A DNA stretch of 64,000 nucleotides. It comes from Candidatus Pelagisphaera phototrophica (GTDB taxonomy: Bacteria; Verrucomicrobiota; Verrucomicrobiia; Opitutales; Opitutaceae). Positions within the stretch are counted from its first letter, which is position 1, and the number at the start of each line of letters is the position of its first letter. Made by a program: the position numbers and the translations under genes. Under the pieces are notes generated by a model that saw only the letters and a list, made by a program, of their open reading frames with translations, was not told the DNA's origin and did not search any database. Positions 26,206-41,689 of the stretch are shown in pieces. The stretch is taken from positions 186,001-250,000 of the forward strand of contig NZ_CP076039.1 in the NCBI RefSeq assembly GCF_014529625.1, read 5' to 3'.

Positions 26206-26889
26206 GTGCCGCTTCATTTTCTATCCAGCAAAATTGAATTCCCAGATCCCACTAGTGCAACGGAGGACGGACTTCTAGCGGTAGGGGGCGACCTTAGTCC
26301 CGAACGACTCATTGAAGCATATTCGAAAGGGGTTTTCCCTTGGTACTCGGATGGACAACCAATCCTTTGGTTTTCTCCCGATCCAAGGATGGTGCTTTAC
26401 CCAGACCATTTCAAATGCTCGACCAATCTCCAAAGAGATATTCGGTCAAATCGTTTTGAGATCCGTATCGACACTGTTTTCAAGGAAGTGATTCACTCTT
26501 GCGCTTCTGCTCCGCGCCCAGGCCAAGAGGGAACCTGGATTACGTCCGACATGATCGACGCCTACATAGAAATGCACCAACTAGGCTACGCACACTCCTT
26601 TGAAGCATTCCATAAGGGTAGCCTCGTCGGGGGACTCTATGGTTTATCGCTTGGAGCCGCGTTCTTCGGGGAGTCCATGTTTCACATCAAGTCGAACGCC
26701 TCAAAAATCGCGCTTTCCCAACTTGTAACGTTTGCTAAAAAAAATGGGTTCGACTTCATTGATGCCCAGGCTCCAAGTAGTCATCTGCAAGGCCTTGGGG
26801 CAACATTGGTTCCACGAAATCGCTTCCTCGAAGAACTCCAATGCTCTCTCAAGTTTGAAACCTTGAGCGGGGATTGGTCCATGGTATGA
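26206..26889 (+). CDS. aat: Leucyl/phenylalanyl-tRNA-protein transferase
   Basis: A 227-residue Aat of normal length. Family signatures are FPDPTSATEDGLLAVGGDL near the N-terminus, GVFPWYSDGQPILWFSPDPR, GTWITSDMIDAY, AHSFEAF, GGLYGLSLGAAFFGESMF and the C-terminal DFIDAQAPSSHLQGLGA. It adds Leu or Phe from aminoacyl-tRNA to N-terminal Arg or Lys of proteins, marking them for ClpS/ClpAP degradation. The start is a GTG. The end lies 16 bp from the convergent bioC end. Confidence 0.96.
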   Translation: MPLHFLSSKIEFPDPTSATEDGLLAVGGDLSPERLIEAYSKGVFPWYSDGQPILWFSPDPRMVLYPDHFKCSTNLQRDIRSNRFEIRIDTVFKEVIHSCASAPRPGQEGTWITSDMIDAYIEMHQLGYAHSFEAFHKGSLVGGLYGLSLGAAFFGESMFHIKSNASKIALSQLVTFAKKNGFDFIDAQAPSSHLQGLGATLVPRNRFLEELQCSLKFETLSGDWSMV

Positions 26890-26905: not shown

Positions 26906-27625
26906 CTAGAGGCACTGATTCGATTGTTGGCACTCAACACGCATCGTTCTCCAGCTCAACTCGAAGTACCCCTTTTCCCGCTTTTCTAAATCTTCCAGCA
27001 AACGCTTCAGCACCGAGGGCTTCATGCGATTCTCGCTGATGGCTCCAATATCATGAATCTGCCTCAAAGCGGCTCGTGGGGATTCATAGATCATAATATC
27101 GGTTCGAGTTTCGCTTCTAATTATATCCAGGTTAGCGGCACGAAAGATCTCGACCCACTCCTTTTCACCTTTCCAAGGAAACGCCGGGAACCTCGAATCC
27201 AATCGGGTAAATTCCTCCAAAGATCCTTCAATAAAAAAACAGACGAGCAGCCTTCCGTTTTCCAGTAACGCATCTCTCCAGACACTTAGAACCCTGATTG
27301 GATCGTTCGCCCATTGCAAAAGGCTGCATGCGTATACTCTGTCAGCTTTTCGTGCCTCAAGTCTCCACGCATCTTGAATCTCCCAACAAATATTAGGCAA
27401 CCGGGCTTTCCCTTCATGTAGCATAGAATGGGAGATATCAGTTGCACAAAATTCACGAAAACTACGCAACGCTAAATAACGTGTAAACAATCCCGTTCCC
27501 GCTCCTAGCTCCAACCCAGCAAGTCGCGAGCAATCTTTATCAATCCACTGAGAAAACCAATCCGCTACCTTTTTTTGGATACTGGCTTTCTCATGATACT
27601 GGAATGCTTTCTGGTCAAATTTCAC
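26906..27625 (-). CDS. bioC: Malonyl-ACP O-methyltransferase BioC
   Basis: A 239-residue SAM-dependent methyltransferase, last gene of the biotin operon. The SAM-binding motif LELGAGTGLFTRYLA lies at about 39-53, with a following FCATDISHSML strand and WANDPIRVLSVWRD in place of the usual motif IV region. BioC methylates malonyl-ACP so that fatty-acid synthesis can elongate it to pimeloyl-ACP. Assignment depends on operon position because BioC sequences are diverse. Its start overlaps the upstream esterase gene by 4 bp. Confidence 0.85.
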   Translation of the reverse strand: MKFDQKAFQYHEKASIQKKVADWFSQWIDKDCSRLAGLELGAGTGLFTRYLALRSFREFCATDISHSMLHEGKARLPNICWEIQDAWRLEARKADRVYACSLLQWANDPIRVLSVWRDALLENGRLLVCFFIEGSLEEFTRLDSRFPAFPWKGEKEWVEIFRAANLDIIRSETRTDIMIYESPRAALRQIHDIGAISENRMKPSVLKRLLEDLEKREKGYFELSWRTMRVECQQSNQCL

Positions 27626-28227
27626 AACTCAATTTTCGCTCCTACAAGCAATTCTCTAAGATCGTGCCCTACGTTTTTCAGAACATTGATACCTGGATTT
27701 ATGCTATTAATTCTTCCCGCGTCCAAAAGCCTGTCATTTTCCCCAATCCAAGCCTCCACCTTTACTAAGTTGCCCCTTCTCACCGAATCGTTTATCAGTC
27801 GATCAACCCCCCAAATCAAATCAGAATCTTCGATTCCAAATAAGTCGTGCGAGTGATCGCTTAACCCAGCCCTAAGAACAAAGTCTCTTATCGCGGCGAG
27901 GCTATCCCTTTGCAACCATCGCCTCAAATAGATCAGCTGGGATCGATACACTTTCCCTCCCCTTTCTTCCTCTTTCTTGAAATCCTCAAATGGAGCTAGA
28001 AAGATCACCCTGTCGAAATAATGGTATAGGTTTGGCTGATTCAACAATAGGAATGCTCCAAGGGAATAGGCGACTACAGTTGAGTTCTTCGATATCTCAC
28101 TGAGCTCCGCATCCCAACCTAATTTGGGCAAAATATAGCGGTGCTCTTTATTTGGATACAGTTCAGAAGCGATCGTCTCCAAATAACTTATTCCGATACC
28201 CCACCCATTTATCCACGCTACTTTCAT
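27622..28227 (-). CDS. Alpha/beta hydrolase, likely pimeloyl-ACP methyl ester esterase
   Basis: A 201-residue alpha/beta hydrolase between bioF and bioC. The nucleophile elbow is AYSLG with Ser55, where the first Gly is replaced by Ala; Asp165 (in IGENDRLLD) and His188 (in NVGHDLREL) complete a plausible triad. The N-terminal strand WINGWGIG provides the oxyanion loop. It is shorter than E. coli BioH and nearer in size to BioG, and it probably hydrolyses the methyl ester of pimeloyl-ACP. That role is inferred from position: every other step of the pathway is present and this one is otherwise missing. It overlaps both neighbours by 4 bp. Confidence 0.75.
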   Translation of the reverse strand: MKVAWINGWGIGISYLETIASELYPNKEHRYILPKLGWDAELSEISKNSTVVAYSLGAFLLLNQPNLYHYFDRVIFLAPFEDFKKEEERGGKVYRSQLIYLRRWLQRDSLAAIRDFVLRAGLSDHSHDLFGIEDSDLIWGVDRLINDSVRRGNLVKVEAWIGENDRLLDAGRINSINPGINVLKNVGHDLRELLVGAKIEL

Positions 28228-29384
28228 TTCAAATCAATGAGAATTTCCTCAAGGGCCTCTAAAAGTCTATTGGTAGAGCTTTCGGCAAGATCAGCCTTTA
28301 GCGAAATCCGCAATCGGCTGGTCCCCTCTGGAACAGTAGGAGGCCGAATCGCACCAACTAGGATTCCACGGCTCTCAAGTTCCTTCGCCAAATTCACAAC
28401 CCGATCTGCCTCGCCGATCTGAATTGATACTATTGCTGAGTCAATGAGCACTACATTTAATCCGATTTGCTCGAGCTGCATCCTCACTCGAGTTGATAGA
28501 TCCCTTCCCGTTTTTCGCAGTGAACTAGATTTCCTTACACATCGTATTGCTTCCGTCGCAATCGCGACGCATGCGGGAGGAAGATAAGTAGAATAGATGA
28601 ATTCTCCCGCAAAATTGGCTAAGTAATCCGAAATAGCTTTCTCATGAAAGAGCGTATACGCACCCATCGACCCAAGCGCCTTACCCAAAGTTCCCACTAG
28701 TGCGTCCACTTGATCCAAAACCCCATATTCTTCCGCTAATCCACTTCCTTCCTTGCCATACCAACCCACGGCGTGAGCCTCATCTAGTATCCAAAAGAAG
28801 CCGTACTTTTTTTTCAAATTGGCTATGCCCTTAAGATCTGGAAAATCTCCATCCATACTGAATACCGACTCAGTGACAACGAATAGAACTCGATCATCTA
28901 TGGCATACTTTTTTAGAAGTGCCTCCAAATGCTCGAGGTCACAATGGCGATAGCGCAATAGACGGGCATCGCTAGCTAGCACTCCCGAGATCATGCTATT
29001 GTGAATCAGCCTGTCCGCCAAAACCAGATCACCGCTTTTCGGAAGCAAGCCCAACATTGCTTGATTCGCCCCGTATCCTGTATTCCATACGATTCCAGTT
29101 TCAAATCCGTACCAGGATTCAATCAAGGCCAGAAGATCACGATGAGCTTTACCGAATCCAGTGACAAGCGGAGAGGCAGATGAAGAGCATCCAAACTTCG
29201 AGATCGCATCTTGACCAGCCTTCTGGAGTCTGGGGTCACTCGAAAAACCCAGATAGTCATTACTTGCCAGATTGAGAATACCTTTCGCTGGATCGCTAGT
29301 CCGCAATCTTCTAAAAATGCCTGAATCCATCCGGGCAGTGAGCTCAGAGTCGATTCTTTCTTTCAGGAACTGATTCAGAGCCAA
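28224..29384 (-). CDS. bioF: 8-amino-7-oxononanoate synthase
   Basis: A 386-residue PLP-dependent alpha-oxoamine synthase. Markers are LNLASNDYLGFSSDPRLQ near the N-terminus, WNTGYGANQAML, ILDEAHAVGWYG with the PLP-binding Asp, and VGTLGKALGSMG holding the Schiff-base Lys. It condenses pimeloyl-ACP with L-alanine to give KAPA. The start overlaps the end of bioD by 10 bp and its end overlaps the esterase by 4 bp. Confidence 0.96.
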   Translation of the reverse strand: MALNQFLKERIDSELTARMDSGIFRRLRTSDPAKGILNLASNDYLGFSSDPRLQKAGQDAISKFGCSSSASPLVTGFGKAHRDLLALIESWYGFETGIVWNTGYGANQAMLGLLPKSGDLVLADRLIHNSMISGVLASDARLLRYRHCDLEHLEALLKKYAIDDRVLFVVTESVFSMDGDFPDLKGIANLKKKYGFFWILDEAHAVGWYGKEGSGLAEEYGVLDQVDALVGTLGKALGSMGAYTLFHEKAISDYLANFAGEFIYSTYLPPACVAIATEAIRCVRKSSSLRKTGRDLSTRVRMQLEQIGLNVVLIDSAIVSIQIGEADRVVNLAKELESRGILVGAIRPPTVPEGTSRLRISLKADLAESSTNRLLEALEEILIDLK

Positions 29385-30019
29385 CCCCTTTCACCAAAAC
29401 ATAAGTCTAATTGGCCTGATTGGGTCATTCCCCATATAGGTATCTTTAAATTTTGGATACCATTCAGCGTACCCGTTTTCCCAAGAGATTCTTGCGGCTC
29501 AATTTCGTTCAGCCACACACCACAGTTGAGATCCTTGGAATTCGCATATTCGTAAACCAGACGGGCCTGCCCAATCGCACCGACTCGATCCTCGACAACC
29601 AGAACCAACGCCTGTACTTTGAGGATCACTGCCAAGTCCAACCAGTCCCTGCCATCATTGCTGAGAGGCGTTGCCAACGAACCTGCCCCTTCAATAATCC
29701 GCCAGTCAACGTCAGCAGGCAAACTTGTGATTGAAGATTCGATCTCAGAAAAATCGAGATCTTCTCCCTCGTATTCAGCCGCCGCAACTGGGGCGATTGG
29801 CTTTGAATATGACCGCAAAGTGTATCCTTTCACTAGCCCGCCGCTGCAACCCTCCAACACTTGGGCAACATCGGATTCCGCACCAACGCAGACTCCTGAT
29901 TCAATCGGCTTAACCACCTGGACAGTCGCGCCCTGAGCCGATAAATGCTGTGCGATCGCGCCAACTACCCAAGTCTTGCCAACGTTTGTATCGCTTCCAC
30001 TAACGAAAAGCGTTCTCAT
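29375..30019 (-). CDS. bioD: Dethiobiotin synthetase
   Basis: A 214-residue BioD. The ATP-binding P-loop is GSDTNVGKTWV (residues 8-18), with VVKPIESG and the EGAGSLATPLS substrate loop in order. It carboxylates DAPA and closes the ureido ring of dethiobiotin. The gene lies 5 bp downstream of bioB and overlaps bioF. Confidence 0.95.
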   Translation of the reverse strand: MRTLFVSGSDTNVGKTWVVGAIAQHLSAQGATVQVVKPIESGVCVGAESDVAQVLEGCSGGLVKGYTLRSYSKPIAPVAAAEYEGEDLDFSEIESSITSLPADVDWRIIEGAGSLATPLSNDGRDWLDLAVILKVQALVLVVEDRVGAIGQARLVYEYANSKDLNCGVWLNEIEPQESLGKTGTLNGIQNLKIPIWGMTQSGQLDLCFGERGWL

Positions 30020-30024
30020 TAGAC

Positions 30025-31017
30025 CTATGCAAATATCGAAGCTTCTTCGCCGGAACGCGCATGAATAGCTCTCGCCTGGTCGGGGTCGAGCGAGGTCAAT
30101 CCAAACTTGTTAAGCAACCTGTAATCATCGCTCGAGTCGGGATTTGCGGTAGTCAACAGCTTATCCCCCAAGAAAATGCTATTCGCTCCAGCCAGATAGC
30201 AGAGAGCCTGTAACTCATCGTTCATCTCTGTCCTACCCGCTGACAATCTCACCATCGTCTTTGGCATCAGTATGCGAGCTGTCGCAATAACCCGGACGAA
30301 TTCGAAACTGTCCACAAACTTTTGCGATTCCAATGGTGTCCCCTTACAGGCAATCAGAGCGTTGATTGGAACGGAGTCCGGATAAGGATCAAGATTCGCA
30401 AGCTCTTGGAGCATCTTCAATCGATCATCGATTGACTCGCCCATACCGATTATCCCACCGCTACAAACTTCCATACCCGCCTCACGCACTTTGCGAATAT
30501 TGTCTAGGCGTTCGTCAAAGGTGCGGGTCGTAATTATCTCACTATAAAACTCCCTTGAAGTATCCAAATTATGATTATATACAGCACAACCAGCTTCCTT
30601 CAGAGCATTAGCCTGTTCCTGCTCAAGCGACCCAAGGGTACAGCACACCTCCATCCCCAAGTCGCTTACGGATTGAACCGTGTTCAACAGTGATTCAAAT
30701 TGCTCTCCATGGGGAACCCTTCTCCACGCGGCTCCCATGCAGAAACGAGTAGCCCCTCCTTTTTTTGCCGCAACCGCGTCCTGCAAGATCGTTTCGGTGT
30801 CAAGCAGCGCTTCCTTTTCTATCCCAACCTCACTATGAGCCGACTGTGGGCAATATTTGCAATCCTCTGGACAGGCACCGGTTTTGATAGACTTCAATGT
30901 ACAAAGCTGAACACCTGACGGGTCCTGAAATTTATGATGCACCGCCTGAGCTCTATAGATAAGGGTCGTCAGGGGAAGATGATAGATATTTTGGATTTCT
31001 TCTAATGTGTATTGCAT
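30025..31017 (-). CDS. bioB: Biotin synthase
   Basis: A 330-residue radical SAM enzyme. The 4Fe-4S cluster motif CPEDCKYC is present, together with the second-cluster region (YNHNLDTSREFY, then CSGGIIGMGES) and the RLSAGRTEM segment with the conserved Arg. It inserts sulphur into dethiobiotin. It starts 2 bp after bioA and belongs to one transcript. Confidence 0.97.
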   Translation of the reverse strand: MQYTLEEIQNIYHLPLTTLIYRAQAVHHKFQDPSGVQLCTLKSIKTGACPEDCKYCPQSAHSEVGIEKEALLDTETILQDAVAAKKGGATRFCMGAAWRRVPHGEQFESLLNTVQSVSDLGMEVCCTLGSLEQEQANALKEAGCAVYNHNLDTSREFYSEIITTRTFDERLDNIRKVREAGMEVCSGGIIGMGESIDDRLKMLQELANLDPYPDSVPINALIACKGTPLESQKFVDSFEFVRVIATARILMPKTMVRLSAGRTEMNDELQALCYLAGANSIFLGDKLLTTANPDSSDDYRLLNKFGLTSLDPDQARAIHARSGEEASIFA

Positions 31018-31019
31018 TA

Positions 31020-32405
31020 CTAATTACCTATGTTGTTCATGACCGCATCAATGGCGGTCTTTAAATTGTCGAAAAGAAAGCCTATTTCCTCTTCGTTAAT
31101 TACGAGCGGAGGAACGACAAGAATTGAGTCGAGCAAAGGTCGCAATAGCAAACCATGCTTACGGGCTTCAAGACAAACCTTCATCCCCACACGATCGTTT
31201 GGATGCCAAGCGTCTCGGCTCGAACCCGGAAATAGGTCTATGGCAGCTGCAAGTCCACGTTGGCGTATGTCTAGAACGTTTCTGTGTCCGTTGAAGGTCT
31301 CAGCCAATGTCTGTCCAAAGTCCTCGATCGTTTTCTCAAGCCTCTTGGAACCAATCAACCGCTCTAGTTTTTCCAAACTCTTAAGAGCGACGCTGGCGGC
31401 TAACGGATTTCCTGTAAACGTGTGCCCGTGATAAAAAGCGTTCCCTGTATCGAAAGAGCCCAGAAATGCTTGGTACATTTTTTCAGTCGTCAGAGTCGCA
31501 GCTAGTGGCAAGTATCCGGCTGTTAGGCCCTTCGCTAAGCAGAGGAAGTCGGGATCCACACCTTCTTGCTCGCAAGCAAAAATGGAGCCAGTCCTTCCAC
31601 AGCCAACAAAGACTTCGTCAAGAATGAGGTGGGCACCATATTTCCGACAAAGGGCTTCGACCCGTTTCAAAAATCCGGCGGGCTGGAGTTTCATTCCTGC
31701 TGGTCCTTGAATTGATGGCTCAATAATGACTGAAGCAATTTCAGACGCTTCACGTTCCAATATCTTTTCGAGCTGAAGCAAACTTCGGTCGGAATCCGAA
31801 TGCTTCACAATTCCGTTGATCTCCGAGCATTTAGGAGCCGCAAATGTTCGCGACTCAAACAACCACGGCTGAAAGCGTCCGTGAAACGAATCGCTGTTTC
31901 CGGCCGCCATCGCCCCGAAAGTGTCTCCATGATACCCGTTCTCCATACCTACGACGATACGCTTCTCAGACTTTCTAACTAGCTGCCAATATTGGAAGGA
32001 CAACTTGAGCGCGATCTCAACCGCGTTCGAACCATTGTCACTAAAAACCACCCGACTGAGCGATTTAGGGGCCAAATCAGCCAATCGCTTTCCAAGCATC
32101 GCCCCGACCGGATGGCTTAGTCCCAGATAGGTGGAATGGGCGATCTTGCCGAGCTGCTCAGCTAGGGCCTCATTGATATCTGGCTCATTGTGCCCGTGGG
32201 CATTTGTCCAAATGGATGCGTTCCCGTCTAAGTATCGATTGCCTTCCGTGTCCCAGATCCAGCAACCTTGACCTCTCTCAACCTGCAATTGTGGAATCGA
32301 GCAATACTCCTCCATTTGAGTAAACGGATGCCAGGAATGGTCCTGATCCATTTCATCAAAAATGGTCGGGTCAATTAATGTGTTCTGACTTCGCAAAACC
32401 GTCAT
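31020..32405 (-). CDS. bioA: Adenosylmethionine-8-amino-7-oxononanoate aminotransferase
   Basis: A 461-residue class III aminotransferase from ATG 32405 (MTVLRSQNTL). A longer frame to 32444 would place the palindromic operator inside the coding sequence and is rejected. Signatures: HSWHPFTQMEEY near the N-terminus, YHGDTFGAMAAG, LILDEVFVGCGRTG, the Lys in CLAKGLTAGYLP, and FYHGHTFTGNPLAAS. It converts KAPA to DAPA using SAM as amino donor. It is the first gene of the biotin operon. Confidence 0.95.
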   Translation of the reverse strand: MTVLRSQNTLIDPTIFDEMDQDHSWHPFTQMEEYCSIPQLQVERGQGCWIWDTEGNRYLDGNASIWTNAHGHNEPDINEALAEQLGKIAHSTYLGLSHPVGAMLGKRLADLAPKSLSRVVFSDNGSNAVEIALKLSFQYWQLVRKSEKRIVVGMENGYHGDTFGAMAAGNSDSFHGRFQPWLFESRTFAAPKCSEINGIVKHSDSDRSLLQLEKILEREASEIASVIIEPSIQGPAGMKLQPAGFLKRVEALCRKYGAHLILDEVFVGCGRTGSIFACEQEGVDPDFLCLAKGLTAGYLPLAATLTTEKMYQAFLGSFDTGNAFYHGHTFTGNPLAASVALKSLEKLERLIGSKRLEKTIEDFGQTLAETFNGHRNVLDIRQRGLAAAIDLFPGSSRDAWHPNDRVGMKVCLEARKHGLLLRPLLDSILVVPPLVINEEEIGFLFDNLKTAIDAVMNNIGN

Positions 32406-32413
32406 CCGATTGA

Positions 32414-32453
32414 TTGTTAAGGCAGAAATGAATCTAATTAACAAGCTTGTTAA
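32414..32453 (-). promoter_or_regulatory. Candidate biotin operator upstream of bioA
   Basis: A perfect 16-bp palindrome TTAACAAGCTTGTTAA (32438-32453) and a third half-site TTGTTAA (32414-32420) sit 8 bp upstream of the bioA start, in the 90-bp gap between bioA and the peroxiredoxin gene. TTGTTAA pairs with the palindrome's inner TTAACAA across 17 bp, close to the spacing of known BirA sites of the TTGTAAAC/GTTTACAA type. A biotin repressor (BirA or another family) binding here is inferred. Confidence 0.6.
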
Positions 32454-32495: not shown

Positions 32496-32969
32496 TCAGA
32501 TAGCCTTTAAGAGCTCCAAGATCTGTTCCCCATGCCTATCAGGGTTCACTTTTACGCAAATTTCCAGGAGGGCTGCATTTTCATCTAAAACATAAGCGGA
32601 GCGGGTTGGTCCCCAAAAGGCTTTGCCATACATCTTCTTTTCGACGAGTGAACCAGCAGCCTTGGCAAATTGGTGTTCAGGATCCGAAACCAACGAGAAA
32701 CCGATCGAGTGCTTAGCCTGGTACTTCATGTGTGATCCCACGGAGTCTTTGCTCAGGCCAAGCACGTCAAACCCCATTGACCGAATCTTATCCCATTCTC
32801 GAGCTAGACTGATCATCTGCCTATCGCAGCTACCCGTGTTGTTCCTCATGAAAACCGAAATGACCGTCGGACGAACGATCAAATCGCTCATGATCAGCGT
32901 CTGTTTTGATTCGCGCTCCGCTACGTTAACGTCAAAACCCAATTCTAGCTGATCACCAGTTGACCTCAT
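32496..32969 (-). CDS. PrxQ/Bcp-like peroxiredoxin
   Basis: A 157-residue thioredoxin-fold peroxiredoxin. The peroxidatic Cys48 is in MRNNTGSCDRQM, a variant of the usual TxxC, and GLSKDSVGSHMKYQAKHS and KKMYGKAFWGPTRSAYVLDE are characteristic of the Bcp/PrxQ branch. It reduces hydroperoxides with thioredoxin. No second Cys at the usual PrxQ position (five residues after) is seen, so it may be 1-Cys or use a partner. The start overlaps the MauE-like gene by 4 bp. Confidence 0.85.
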   Translation of the reverse strand: MRSTGDQLELGFDVNVAERESKQTLIMSDLIVRPTVISVFMRNNTGSCDRQMISLAREWDKIRSMGFDVLGLSKDSVGSHMKYQAKHSIGFSLVSDPEHQFAKAAGSLVEKKMYGKAFWGPTRSAYVLDENAALLEICVKVNPDRHGEQILELLKAI

Positions 32970-38912: not shown

Positions 38913-39302
38913 CTAAAGGGCCTCAGCACCTCTAGCGCGACGAACGTTTGGCTCTTTGATCGTCTTAATCCCGTTGTTCCCATTCACGAGGACGAGTTTG
39001 GGCCTAAAGGTATCGACTTTTGATTCCTTTACCTTAGTGTAACTAGCGATGATGACAAGGTCACCTGGACTAGCCAAATGAGCGGCGGCCCCGTTAATGC
39101 AGATTTCGCCCGGCTTGCCCCAAATCACATAGGTGTGGAAACGATTCCCATTGTTGCAATTATAGACATCCACTTTTTCGAACTCCACCAGGTCCACCGC
39201 CTCGCAAAGATTCGGGTCTATACTGATGGAGCCTTCATAGTTCAGATCAGCATCGGTTACTACCGCGCGATGGATCTTTGATTTTAGCATGGAGCGTTTC
39301 AT
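38913..39302 (-). CDS. panD: Aspartate 1-decarboxylase
   Basis: A 129-residue PanD proenzyme. The Gly24-Ser25 self-cleavage site is in DADLNYEGSISID, which generates the pyruvoyl group. YNCNNGNRF and INGAAAHLASPGDLVIIASY are conserved. It makes beta-alanine for pantothenate. It is the last gene of the panB-panC-coaX-panD run. Confidence 0.96.
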   Translation of the reverse strand: MKRSMLKSKIHRAVVTDADLNYEGSISIDPNLCEAVDLVEFEKVDVYNCNNGNRFHTYVIWGKPGEICINGAAAHLASPGDLVIIASYTKVKESKVDTFRPKLVLVNGNNGIKTIKEPNVRRARGAEAL

Positions 39303-39324
39303 AGCTTAAACTTTTCTCGTATAT

Positions 39325-40110
39325 CTAATTCTTATCGATCGGATTTAACTCCAGCATCTTGTTCACGCCTTGAAGCACCAAATCCGAGATGATGTCGTCA
39401 AACAATTTTTCGTCTCTATACAGCAGGGAGTAACCACCGGTAGCGACAATCCGGTATCTCTTTTTGCCAAAAGCTTCTTCACCGATCCGCCTCACCAATT
39501 CCTTCACTAAACCCAAGTAACCAAAATACAGTCCTCCTTGGATGCTTTCTATAGAGGACTTCCCGAGAGCCTTTTCCGCATTCACAATTTCCACATGCGG
39601 AAGCTTAGCAGTCTTCGTCCCCAGAGCTTCCATAGCCAAGCCTAATCCCGCGCAAATGGAACCACCGAGGTATTCCTTTTCTTCGCTAACAGCATCCAGC
39701 GTTATAGCGGTACCAAAGTCGACCACAACGATATTTTGGTCAGGATACAGCTCCATCACCGCGATTGCATTAGCAATTCGGTCAGCACCCACTTCGAGCG
39801 GATTTCGAGTCTTGATCTTCAACCGCGTCTTAACTCCAGATTCCAGAAAGAGAGGTTCCGTATTGAAATATTCGCGACAAGCCATTTTGAGTGTAAACAG
39901 CTCCTCCGGAACCACACAGCTCACTCCAATTCGTCGGATCTGCTTGGAGTCTATTCCCTTCTCTCTCAATGCCGACACGAGAAACAGCCCCATTTCGTCA
40001 CTCGATACACGATATGAAGACTCTTTTCGGATCTGCATGACAAGGCGCTTATCGTTCTCGTAAACCGCTCCGTGCAATTGAGAGTTTCCCACATCAATGC
40101 ACAGATTCAT
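39325..40110 (-). CDS. coaX: Type III pantothenate kinase
   Basis: A 261-residue CoaX. DVGNSQLHGAVY at the N-terminus supplies the phosphate loop, followed by GADRIANAIAVMELYPDQN and VVDFGTAITLDAV; GGSICAGLGLAMEAL fits the family. It phosphorylates pantothenate as the first committed step to CoA, without the feedback control of CoaA-type enzymes. Its start overlaps panC by 4 bp. Confidence 0.95.
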   Translation of the reverse strand: MNLCIDVGNSQLHGAVYENDKRLVMQIRKESSYRVSSDEMGLFLVSALREKGIDSKQIRRIGVSCVVPEELFTLKMACREYFNTEPLFLESGVKTRLKIKTRNPLEVGADRIANAIAVMELYPDQNIVVVDFGTAITLDAVSEEKEYLGGSICAGLGLAMEALGTKTAKLPHVEIVNAEKALGKSSIESIQGGLYFGYLGLVKELVRRIGEEAFGKKRYRIVATGGYSLLYRDEKLFDDIISDLVLQGVNKMLELNPIDKN

Positions 40111-40901
40111 CGCAATGACCCTTTCAATTTCTTCAATACGCTAAGTGTCCAATTGTCGATCAACCGTACCCCCTCCAAATTAACCGCCCCAAAACGGCGA
40201 CCTCCTTCATCCACTACGTACTCTACTTCGAAACCCGCTTCCCTAAGCTCGCCAGTCGCTTCCTCAGGAGTCGAGGCAGTCGTGAGTATGCGGGGGAAAA
40301 CTGCCGCCTTTTTTCGGCCTGCTTCTGAAAGACGGCGGTTTCGCGAGCTCAAGGCCAATCCATCGTCCGCCCTTGCCGTTTCACAAGCAACAATCTCAAT
40401 GGGTAGAAAAAACGCTTCCACCATTCCTTTGACCAATCGTAATTGCTGGTAGTCTTTCTCGCCAAAATAAGCACGCTGCGCTCCAGACAAATTCAGCAAT
40501 TTTAGGACAACCGTTAATACGCCATCGAAATGACCCGGCCGCTGCACTCCTTCCATAGAAAGCGAATCCTGGCTTTCCGACACCTTAAACAGATAAGTAT
40601 CTGGGTACATTGCTTCAAAGTCAGGAGCAAACACCACATCTACTCCAAGATCCTCCAGTAATGCGAGGTCCTGCTCAAAATTAGCGGGGTAGGTTTCGTA
40701 GTCGGACGCGTTGTTAAACTGAGTTCGATTCAGAAAGATACTCACCGCAGTCAGTTCATTCTCAGCCAACGAACGACGCACAAGCGAGCTGTGGCCTTCA
40801 TGCAAGCCCCCCATTGTCGGGACAAATCCTAGTGAATGTCCAACCACCAGTTGCGAGCGAAACACCATCCACTCGCTAAGACTGCGAAATACTGGAATCA
40901 T
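40107..40901 (-). CDS. panC: Pantoate-beta-alanine ligase
   Basis: A 264-residue PanC (usual length about 280). FVPTMGGLHEGHSSLVRRSL includes the HxGH ATP-binding motif; SIFLNRTQFNNASDYETYP and FGEKDYQQLRLVKGM are also characteristic. The usual KMSKS-like loop region reads ALSSRNRRLS. It joins pantoate and beta-alanine. It overlaps panB by 4 bp. Confidence 0.95.
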   Translation of the reverse strand: MIPVFRSLSEWMVFRSQLVVGHSLGFVPTMGGLHEGHSSLVRRSLAENELTAVSIFLNRTQFNNASDYETYPANFEQDLALLEDLGVDVVFAPDFEAMYPDTYLFKVSESQDSLSMEGVQRPGHFDGVLTVVLKLLNLSGAQRAYFGEKDYQQLRLVKGMVEAFFLPIEIVACETARADDGLALSSRNRRLSEAGRKKAAVFPRILTTASTPEEATGELREAGFEVEYVVDEGGRRFGAVNLEGVRLIDNWTLSVLKKLKGSLR

Positions 40902-41689
40902 GGCTTATACTCTCCATCGCCGGGGTAGCCACGATCCCGAACGTCTTCGCAGTATCCTTCCACTGCCCGATTAATCATCTGATCCGCGTCCATGTAGCGA
41001 CGCGCAAACGGAGGCTGGAAGTCAGAGTCCAACCCCAGGAGATCGTTTAGAACCAAAACCTGCCCAGAAGTCTCCGGGCCACTACCGATTCCAATCGTAG
41101 GGATCCCCAGCGCATCTGTCACTCGTTCCGCCACTTCGCTAGGAATGCACTCGAGTACAATTGAGAAGCAGCCTGATTCTTCCAATTCGAGCGCCTCATC
41201 AAGAAGCGCTTGGGCCGCATCGCCGTTTCTAGCCTGAATTTTAAACCCCCCGAATTCGTTGACCGATTGGGGCGTCATACCTAAGTGACCCATCACAGGA
41301 ACGCCCCCTTCCACCAGTCGAGTGATCAGTTCAATATTTCCACGGCATCGCTCGACTTTTAACGCGTTCGCCCCAGCCCGCATTAGTTTGGCCACCGCGT
41401 TCGTAGACGCCTCAATCCCACCCCTGTAGGAAAGAAAGGGCATATCACCTATGATTACTTTATTTGGTGCCCCACGCCGAACCGCCGCCGTGTGCGCTTC
41501 CATCATCTCGACAGTCGCGTGGATGGTGCTGTCAAACCCGTGCACCACCATCGCGCAGGAGTCGCCCACTAAGATCGAGTCAACACTCGTCTCGTTTAGG
41601 ATTTTGGCCGTTGCTGCGTCGTAGCACGTCACCATGGTGATCGGCTCGCCAGCGGCTTTCCGCTTGTAGAAATCTGGAATCGTTTTCAT
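40898..41689 (-). CDS. panB: 3-methyl-2-oxobutanoate hydroxymethyltransferase
   Basis: A 263-residue TIM-barrel PanB. MVTCYDAATAKILNETSVD and ILVGDSCAMVVHG carry the metal-binding Asp; VKGE-like catalytic Glu lies in the VLECIPSE segment, and GIGSGPETSGQVLVLNDLLG is the conserved C-terminal loop. It adds a methylene-tetrahydrofolate-derived hydroxymethyl to ketoisovalerate. First gene of the pantothenate operon. Confidence 0.96.
   Translation of the reverse strand: MKTIPDFYKRKAAGEPITMVTCYDAATAKILNETSVDSILVGDSCAMVVHGFDSTIHATVEMMEAHTAAVRRGAPNKVIIGDMPFLSYRGGIEASTNAVAKLMRAGANALKVERCRGNIELITRLVEGGVPVMGHLGMTPQSVNEFGGFKIQARNGDAAQALLDEALELEESGCFSIVLECIPSEVAERVTDALGIPTIGIGSGPETSGQVLVLNDLLGLDSDFQPPFARRYMDADQMINRAVEGYCEDVRDRGYPGDGEYKP

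Follow-up and report, generated by a model that had tools for sequence, protein, structure and literature searches.

A candidate BirA operator before bioA in an Opitutaceae-like genome, and a predicted biotin-uptake system behind the same box in its relatives

The bio operon and the repeat before it

The window analysed here (64,000 nucleotides in total, from Candidatus Pelagisphaera phototrophica) contains on its minus strand an operon for biotin synthesis, in which bioA, bioB, bioD and bioF are followed by an unassigned gene and a bioC-like gene. The features of the locus are collected in Table 1. The product of the unassigned gene, 201 residues long, did not match any Pfam or NCBIfam model. 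The longest open reading frame of bioA begins at a TTG codon within the repeat described below, and the start that best fits the relatives is the ATG at 32405. Further along the window (38913–41689, minus strand), open reading frames resembling panD, coaX, panC and panB were recognised by eye from their translations.

Table 1. Features of the bio locus; positions are those of the window.
Feature	Position	Strand	Remarks
Candidate BirA operator (BirA box), TTGTTAA-N17-TTAACAA inverted repeat	32414..32444	-	exact, unique in genome; kept before bioA in relatives; half-site and spacing as in Gracilibacillus
bioA-proximal half-site (TTAACAA on minus strand)	32414..32420		8 nt from ATG
Distal half-site of the predicted functional pair (TTGTTAA on minus strand)	32438..32444
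Third, outer half-site (TTAACAA on minus strand)	32447..32453		forms palindrome TTAACAAGCTTGTTAA with 32438–32444
bioA, first gene of the operon	31020..32405	-	TIGR00508, 482.6 bits (cut-off 405); alternative starts TTG 32444, ATG 32354
bioB	30025..31017	-	TIGR00433, 384.6 bits (cut-off 225)
bioD	29375..30019	-	AAA_26 domain, Pfam PF13500; named from domain and operon position
bioF	28224..29384	-	best NCBIfam match TIGR00858 bioF, 362.5 bits, under cut-off (426.45)
Possible BioG/BioH-type esterase gene, between bioF and bioC	27622..28227	-	by position only
bioC-like methyltransferase gene	26906..27625	-	best NCBIfam match TIGR02072 BioC, 104.9 bits, under cut-off (184.95); Pfam methyltransferase
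AhpC/TSA-type redoxin gene, upstream neighbour, one edge of the slot whose content differs among relatives	32496..32969	-	Pfam PF00578; also neighbour in G078 and G019
Leucyl/phenylalanyl-tRNA transferase gene (aat), downstream neighbour, other edge of the slot	26206..26889	+	Pfam PF03588; likewise in G019 and G078

Three half-sites, read on the plus strand as TTGTTAA, TTAACAA and TTGTTAA, lie in front of bioA; they read TTAACAA-GC-TTGTTAA-N17-TTAACAA-8 nt-ATG on the minus strand, which codes for bioA. The initial annotation had reported three half-sites between 32414 and 32453, and a perfect palindrome with a further half-site directly before bioA. All three are present, exact and at those positions, and the arrangement is borne out, the site ending 8 nt from the ATG. 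The two half-sites farthest from bioA form a perfect palindrome of 16 bp (32438–32453), and the middle one also pairs with the bioA-proximal one over a spacer of 17 nt. This spaced repeat, rather than the tight palindrome, is most likely the working unit.

The spaced repeat was found once in the window; 100 shuffles gave 0.00 on average. A search for TTAACAANNTTGTTAA with up to two mismatches also yielded one match, an exact one (shuffle mean 0.28, with at least one match in 23 of 100 shuffles). In the genome of 4.09 Mb, TTGTTAA-N13..21-TTAACAA occurs at a single place, before bioA, and the backward control gave 0. When the N17 pattern was relaxed to two mismatches, 18 places were found in the genome (the bioA site included) versus 22 for the backward control; the relaxed pattern is no commoner than its control, and therefore only the exact site is informative. 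These relaxed counts are what speaks for a chance repeat in intergenic DNA. Against it stand the uniqueness of the exact site and its position at bioA, together with the retention of the box before bioA across the family and its enrichment before receptor genes (see below), and we regard the probability of a chance origin as negligible. Sigma-70 matches are lacking near the site, and a search around it for a consensus promoter and a terminator found neither.

The regulator, the relatives and known BirA operators

The BirA gene of the genome lies at G000:C1:1318113–1319093 (L001:1156–2139, minus strand). Its HTH_11, ligase and C-terminal domains all score over the Pfam cut-offs (HTH_11, 53.7 bits with a cut-off of 25), and the protein passes the NCBIfam model birA_ligase (183.3 bits, cut-off 83.1) and stays under the cut-off of birA_repr_reg (53.8 bits, cut-off 70). 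Solved BirA chains are matched across both the HTH and the ligase part, among them 1bia (residues 13–323), which we take to be E. coli BirA. A BirA match at E 1e-10 was present in 95 of 100 family genomes, and most of the best matches begin at residue 1–6, the HTH included.

Conservation of the box upstream of bioA was assessed in those 13 family genomes whose BioA is at least 51% identical; the other four of 17 matches (G052, G054, G022 and G009, 32–33%) were left out. The best box scored 14/14 in three genomes, 13/14 in three, 12/14 in four and 11/14 in one, i.e. at least 12/14 in 10 of the 13, one of these ten (L016) being tied with the backward control at 12. The box is absent before bioA in G035 and G097 (7 and 8 of 14); in both, the gene immediately preceding bioA, on the same strand, encodes a TonB receptor, and a box is found in front of that gene, at 11/14 in G035 and 13/14 in G097. 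The half-sites are 17 or 18 nt apart in the wider family. Within the genus, all 11 genomes have the N17 pair (the only spacing sought) close to bioA or what remains of it; the spacer letters vary, and the second half has A or T as its outermost letter. An ATG follows 8–10 nt past the box in 9 of the 11, as judged by eye on printed stretches with frames unchecked. BioA is 70–100% identical to that of the window in the five near relatives compared. The title 'Gammaproteobacteria bacterium' of one contig from a public MAG (L021, PBZS01000097.1) is probably a wrong label or the result of mis-binning, because the contig's BioA is 100% identical to the window's and its operator region is nearly the same.

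Exact boxes with spacers of N16–20 were found at 22 places in 19 of the 384 genomes of the class (20 places were annotated together; those in G000 and G012 were examined separately). Eight belong to bioA, to bioB or to the vestige of a bio locus, three lie before TonB-receptor genes and one before sucA, and at ten no biotin gene was recognised by eye. The exact boxes precede bioA-type genes in G402, G252 and G012 and bioB-type genes in G436, G261 and G103. The backward control matched in 11 of the 384 genomes (by our count), 2 of these genomes belonging to the order, which holds 14 of the 22 real places. The sucA case is an exact TTGTTAA-N17-TTAACAA box in G048 (L074, 3001–3031), 31 nt before the open reading frame for the E1 component of 2-oxoglutarate dehydrogenase; we know of no link of sucA to biotin.

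The site was compared with three kinds of known BirA operators. For B. subtilis, excerpts of PMC4016012 list bioWAFDBI, yuiG and yhfUTS as the genes with BirA operators; they also state that operator binding requires biotin and ATP, that a lone half-site stays unbound, and that the operators of B. subtilis and E. coli BirA differ in sequence and spacing. A bio operon of Gracilibacillus (first gene bioW by eye) is preceded by TTGTTAACC-N13-GGTTAACAA, which leaves N17 between the 7-mers. The window's site has in common with this Bacillus-type operator the TTGTTAA(C) half-site, the N17 between 7-mers and a group II regulator, one that has both HTH and ligase domains; it differs in its Opitutaceae-like host, in the variable letters adjoining the half-sites, in the third half-site and in the lack of a BioY match in the genome. 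Because half-site and spacing equal those before the Gracilibacillus bio operon, the box is, judged by its letters, a Bacillus-type BirA box and not a new lineage-specific consensus. The suggestion of the initial annotation that the motif departs from the known consensus and is specific to a lineage thus fails for the core and holds for the third half-site only.

The E. coli operator bioO, TTGTAAACC-N16-GGTTTACAA (as 7-mers TTGTAAA-N20-TTTACAA), is also an inverted repeat before bioA and is bound by an HTH-bearing BirA. It has TTGTAAA half-sites 20 nt apart and lies between the divergent bioA and bioB, whereas the window has TTGTTAA half-sites 17 nt apart and one operon. For delta-proteobacteria, excerpts of PMC545781 describe one or two candidate BirA sites per genome before biotin genes, and a birA gene that is itself unregulated by BirA sites outside Desulfovibrio. 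The window's genome, with one site, agrees with these numbers; the delta-proteobacterial sites differ in consisting of 9-mers such as TTGTcAACC/TTGTAAACC with N14/15 between them (18–19 between 7-mers).

The initial annotation had named the lack of a second copy at biotin genes as a result that would refute it, and taken literally this is the case in this genome: neither the whole-genome nor the per-locus scans found one. Second copies occur in relatives. The best site scored 10/14 or less at birA, at accB/accC (identified by eye) and at four other Biotin_lipoyl loci, and 11/14 at two more Biotin_lipoyl loci; the pyruvate carboxylase promoter was covered by the whole-genome scans and lay outside the per-locus scan. 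Neither BioY nor, at E 1e-20, the TonB receptor of the relatives found a match in the window's genome. Further copies in the same genome need not be present, a single site per genome having also been reported in delta-proteobacteria (excerpts of PMC545781), and with one bio operon in view and no match to BioY or the receptor, a one-site regulon is plausible.

Overall, the comparisons make it very likely that 32414–32444 is the BirA operator of the bioABDF-(unassigned gene)-bioC operon and that the operon is repressed by biotin-loaded BirA. By the operator logic of B. subtilis BirA, a dimer of the chromosomally encoded protein, loaded with biotinyl-5'-AMP at high biotin, would bind the half-sites 17 nt apart and block transcription of the bio operon. 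With 8 nt between the site and the start codon, an overlap with the promoter is probable, and the mRNA would be leaderless or have a very short leader. Sequence, uniqueness and conservation of the site and the HTH-bearing BirA are observed; binding, co-repressor and direction of regulation we infer. This evidence lends good support to the initial annotation's proposal that a local BirA binds the site as a biotin operator: the genome encodes a BirA with a DNA-binding HTH domain, and the site is kept before bioA- and bioB-type genes of relatives.

The third half-site

The third half-site, TTAACAA, is exact (7/7) in 7 of the 11 genus genomes, some of which are closely related to each other (G000, G456, G455, G454, G452, G457 and G078); G453 has 5 of its 7 letters, and G048, G451 and G450 lack it. 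Its distance from the pair is 2 nt, and 3 nt in G457. The chance of a 7/7 match at this position is 0.0017 per sequence, and in G455, G454 and G452 the 7-mer is intact with a flank beyond it that has diverged from the window's to about background. For comparison, the top-scoring box anywhere in each of 93 loci was taken and retained if it reached at least 12/14; at the 51 other boxes so obtained, the third half-site was never found at 7/7 and once at 6/7. On this comparison, it is a conserved addition restricted to the host genus, which the rest of the operator is not. An additional BirA protomer or dimer might sit on it, or it may serve another protein or the promoter; a role in BirA binding appears doubtful.

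The tight palindrome was rejected as the functional operator because it is the N17 pair that all 11 genus genomes share, and not the tight one. It might nevertheless be the operator of another regulator, with BirA uninvolved. Such a regulator would account for the perfect symmetry over 16 bp, for an outer half kept despite diverged flanks, and for the occurrence of TTAACAAN2-3TTGTTAA once each in 7 of the 11 genus genomes, at the bioA locus; the backward control of this pattern, however, also matches once in G000 and once in G078. The three genomes without the outer half-site keep the N17 pair nonetheless, the inner spacing shifts from 2 to 3 nt in G457, and the outer half accompanies none of the 51 other boxes at 7/7. 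Taken together, another regulator is highly improbable, although one with a single genomic site could still exist. As a further alternative, the third half-site could belong, as its inner half, to another BirA operator of lower strength, with two dimers side by side. G457 has the arrangement expected of such a tandem, TTGTAAA-N17-TTAACAA-GGC-TTGTTAA-N17-TTAACAT, with a plausible distal partner 17 nt further out, but in the other six genomes with an exact third half-site the partner expected at N16–18 matches at only 1–4 of 7 positions, and a lone half-site is not bound by B. subtilis BirA (excerpts of PMC4016012). A tandem operator is thus unlikely.

TonB receptor and permease genes behind the box

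The TonB receptor was found at E 1e-20 in 83 of 100 family genomes, i.e. in 4 of the 13 bioA genomes versus 79 of the 87 others (Fisher p = 6.5e-6, a value that ignores kinship and incomplete genomes). Upstream regions were collected from 81 of the 83 genomes (G087 and G011, with gene fragments, were left out; three had less than 300 bases upstream because of a contig end). The box scored at least 12/14 in 40 of the 81; the backward control reached this score in 1 of 81, and letter shuffles would give about 0.06. The box scored at least 11/14 in 58 (control, 2) and 10/14 or less in 23. Pfam PF00593 was over the cut-off in 4 of 7 receptors scanned (L077, L080, L082 and L083); L068 was truncated, and L075 and L092 gave no match. 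NCBIfam matches of the receptor were far under the cut-off. The receptor alignment comprised 16 receptors, and the PDB profile search yielded one match, PhuR (E 1.6e-06 over 103 positions).

Gene neighbours were examined at 15 of 30 receptor loci, and a permease gene of one kind adjoins the receptor in five of the 15, with a Pfam EamA match in the four that were scanned. Loci with the permease beside the receptor and a BirA-like box upstream are L083/L214 (G019), L079 (G078) and L080–L082. The permeases of G078 and G019 are 33% and 38% identical to E. coli BioP/YigM over 261 and 286 columns, and like BioP they match NCBIfam TIGR00950; in contrast to BioP, which passes the cut-off of 230.2 bits, they score 136.9 and 145.1 bits, and the predicted permease in relatives differs further in adjoining a TonB receptor behind a BirA-like box.

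In G078, a sister species without a bioA match, the locus can be aligned to the window as far as 27265 and again from 32241. About 5 kb is missing, from inside bioC to inside bioA, and the operator is intact, including the third half-site (L073, 2828–3031); a short stretch, GCCTTCCGT, is common to both window edges of the gap. Another exact box in this genome precedes a TonB-receptor gene, which is followed by an EamA-type permease gene on the same strand. In G019 the receptor and permease genes lie between aat and the redoxin gene, which is the slot of the window's bio operon. By the shared box and the G019 slot, synthesis and predicted uptake share a box and, in one genome, a place.

The receptor, sometimes together with a BioP homologue, is therefore a predicted biotin-uptake system, present mainly where bioA is missing. 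We consider it fairly likely, on the sequence comparisons described, that the BirA-box regulon in the relatives includes an undescribed outer-membrane biotin importer that replaces synthesis, and that the window's genus carries the operator with three half-sites; the receptor part of this reading is better supported than a third half-site that binds BirA. The titles and abstract openings of the best-ranked literature matches, among which subscription papers are mostly outside coverage, name no TonB-dependent biotin transporter, and neither do excerpts of PMC5343134, PMC9123166, PMC12702654, PMC3400609, PMC11658791 and PMC5317091. In the 2024 review of TonB-dependent transport (PMC11658791) the word 'biotin' is absent from the main text, and PMC6593275 gives BioY and YigM as biotin transporters, with the word 'TonB' absent. 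Among the best-ranked matches for Verrucomicrobia, biotin and BirA, no title concerns a BirA regulon in Verrucomicrobia.

The Bacillus-type BirA box is now placed in an Opitutaceae-like family, where it may serve as a footprint for finding biotin genes in this bacterial group. Following the box gives a testable candidate for active import of biotin across the outer membrane. It also suggests a plausible route from synthesis to uptake, along which the box would stay constant and the genes would be exchanged or deleted. One family genome, G049, is an exception with respect to the regulator: its BirA match begins at residue 63, the first 62 residues with the HTH region being missing, and the region upstream of its receptor gene (L092) is boxless (8/14), which possibly reflects a loss of BirA regulation.
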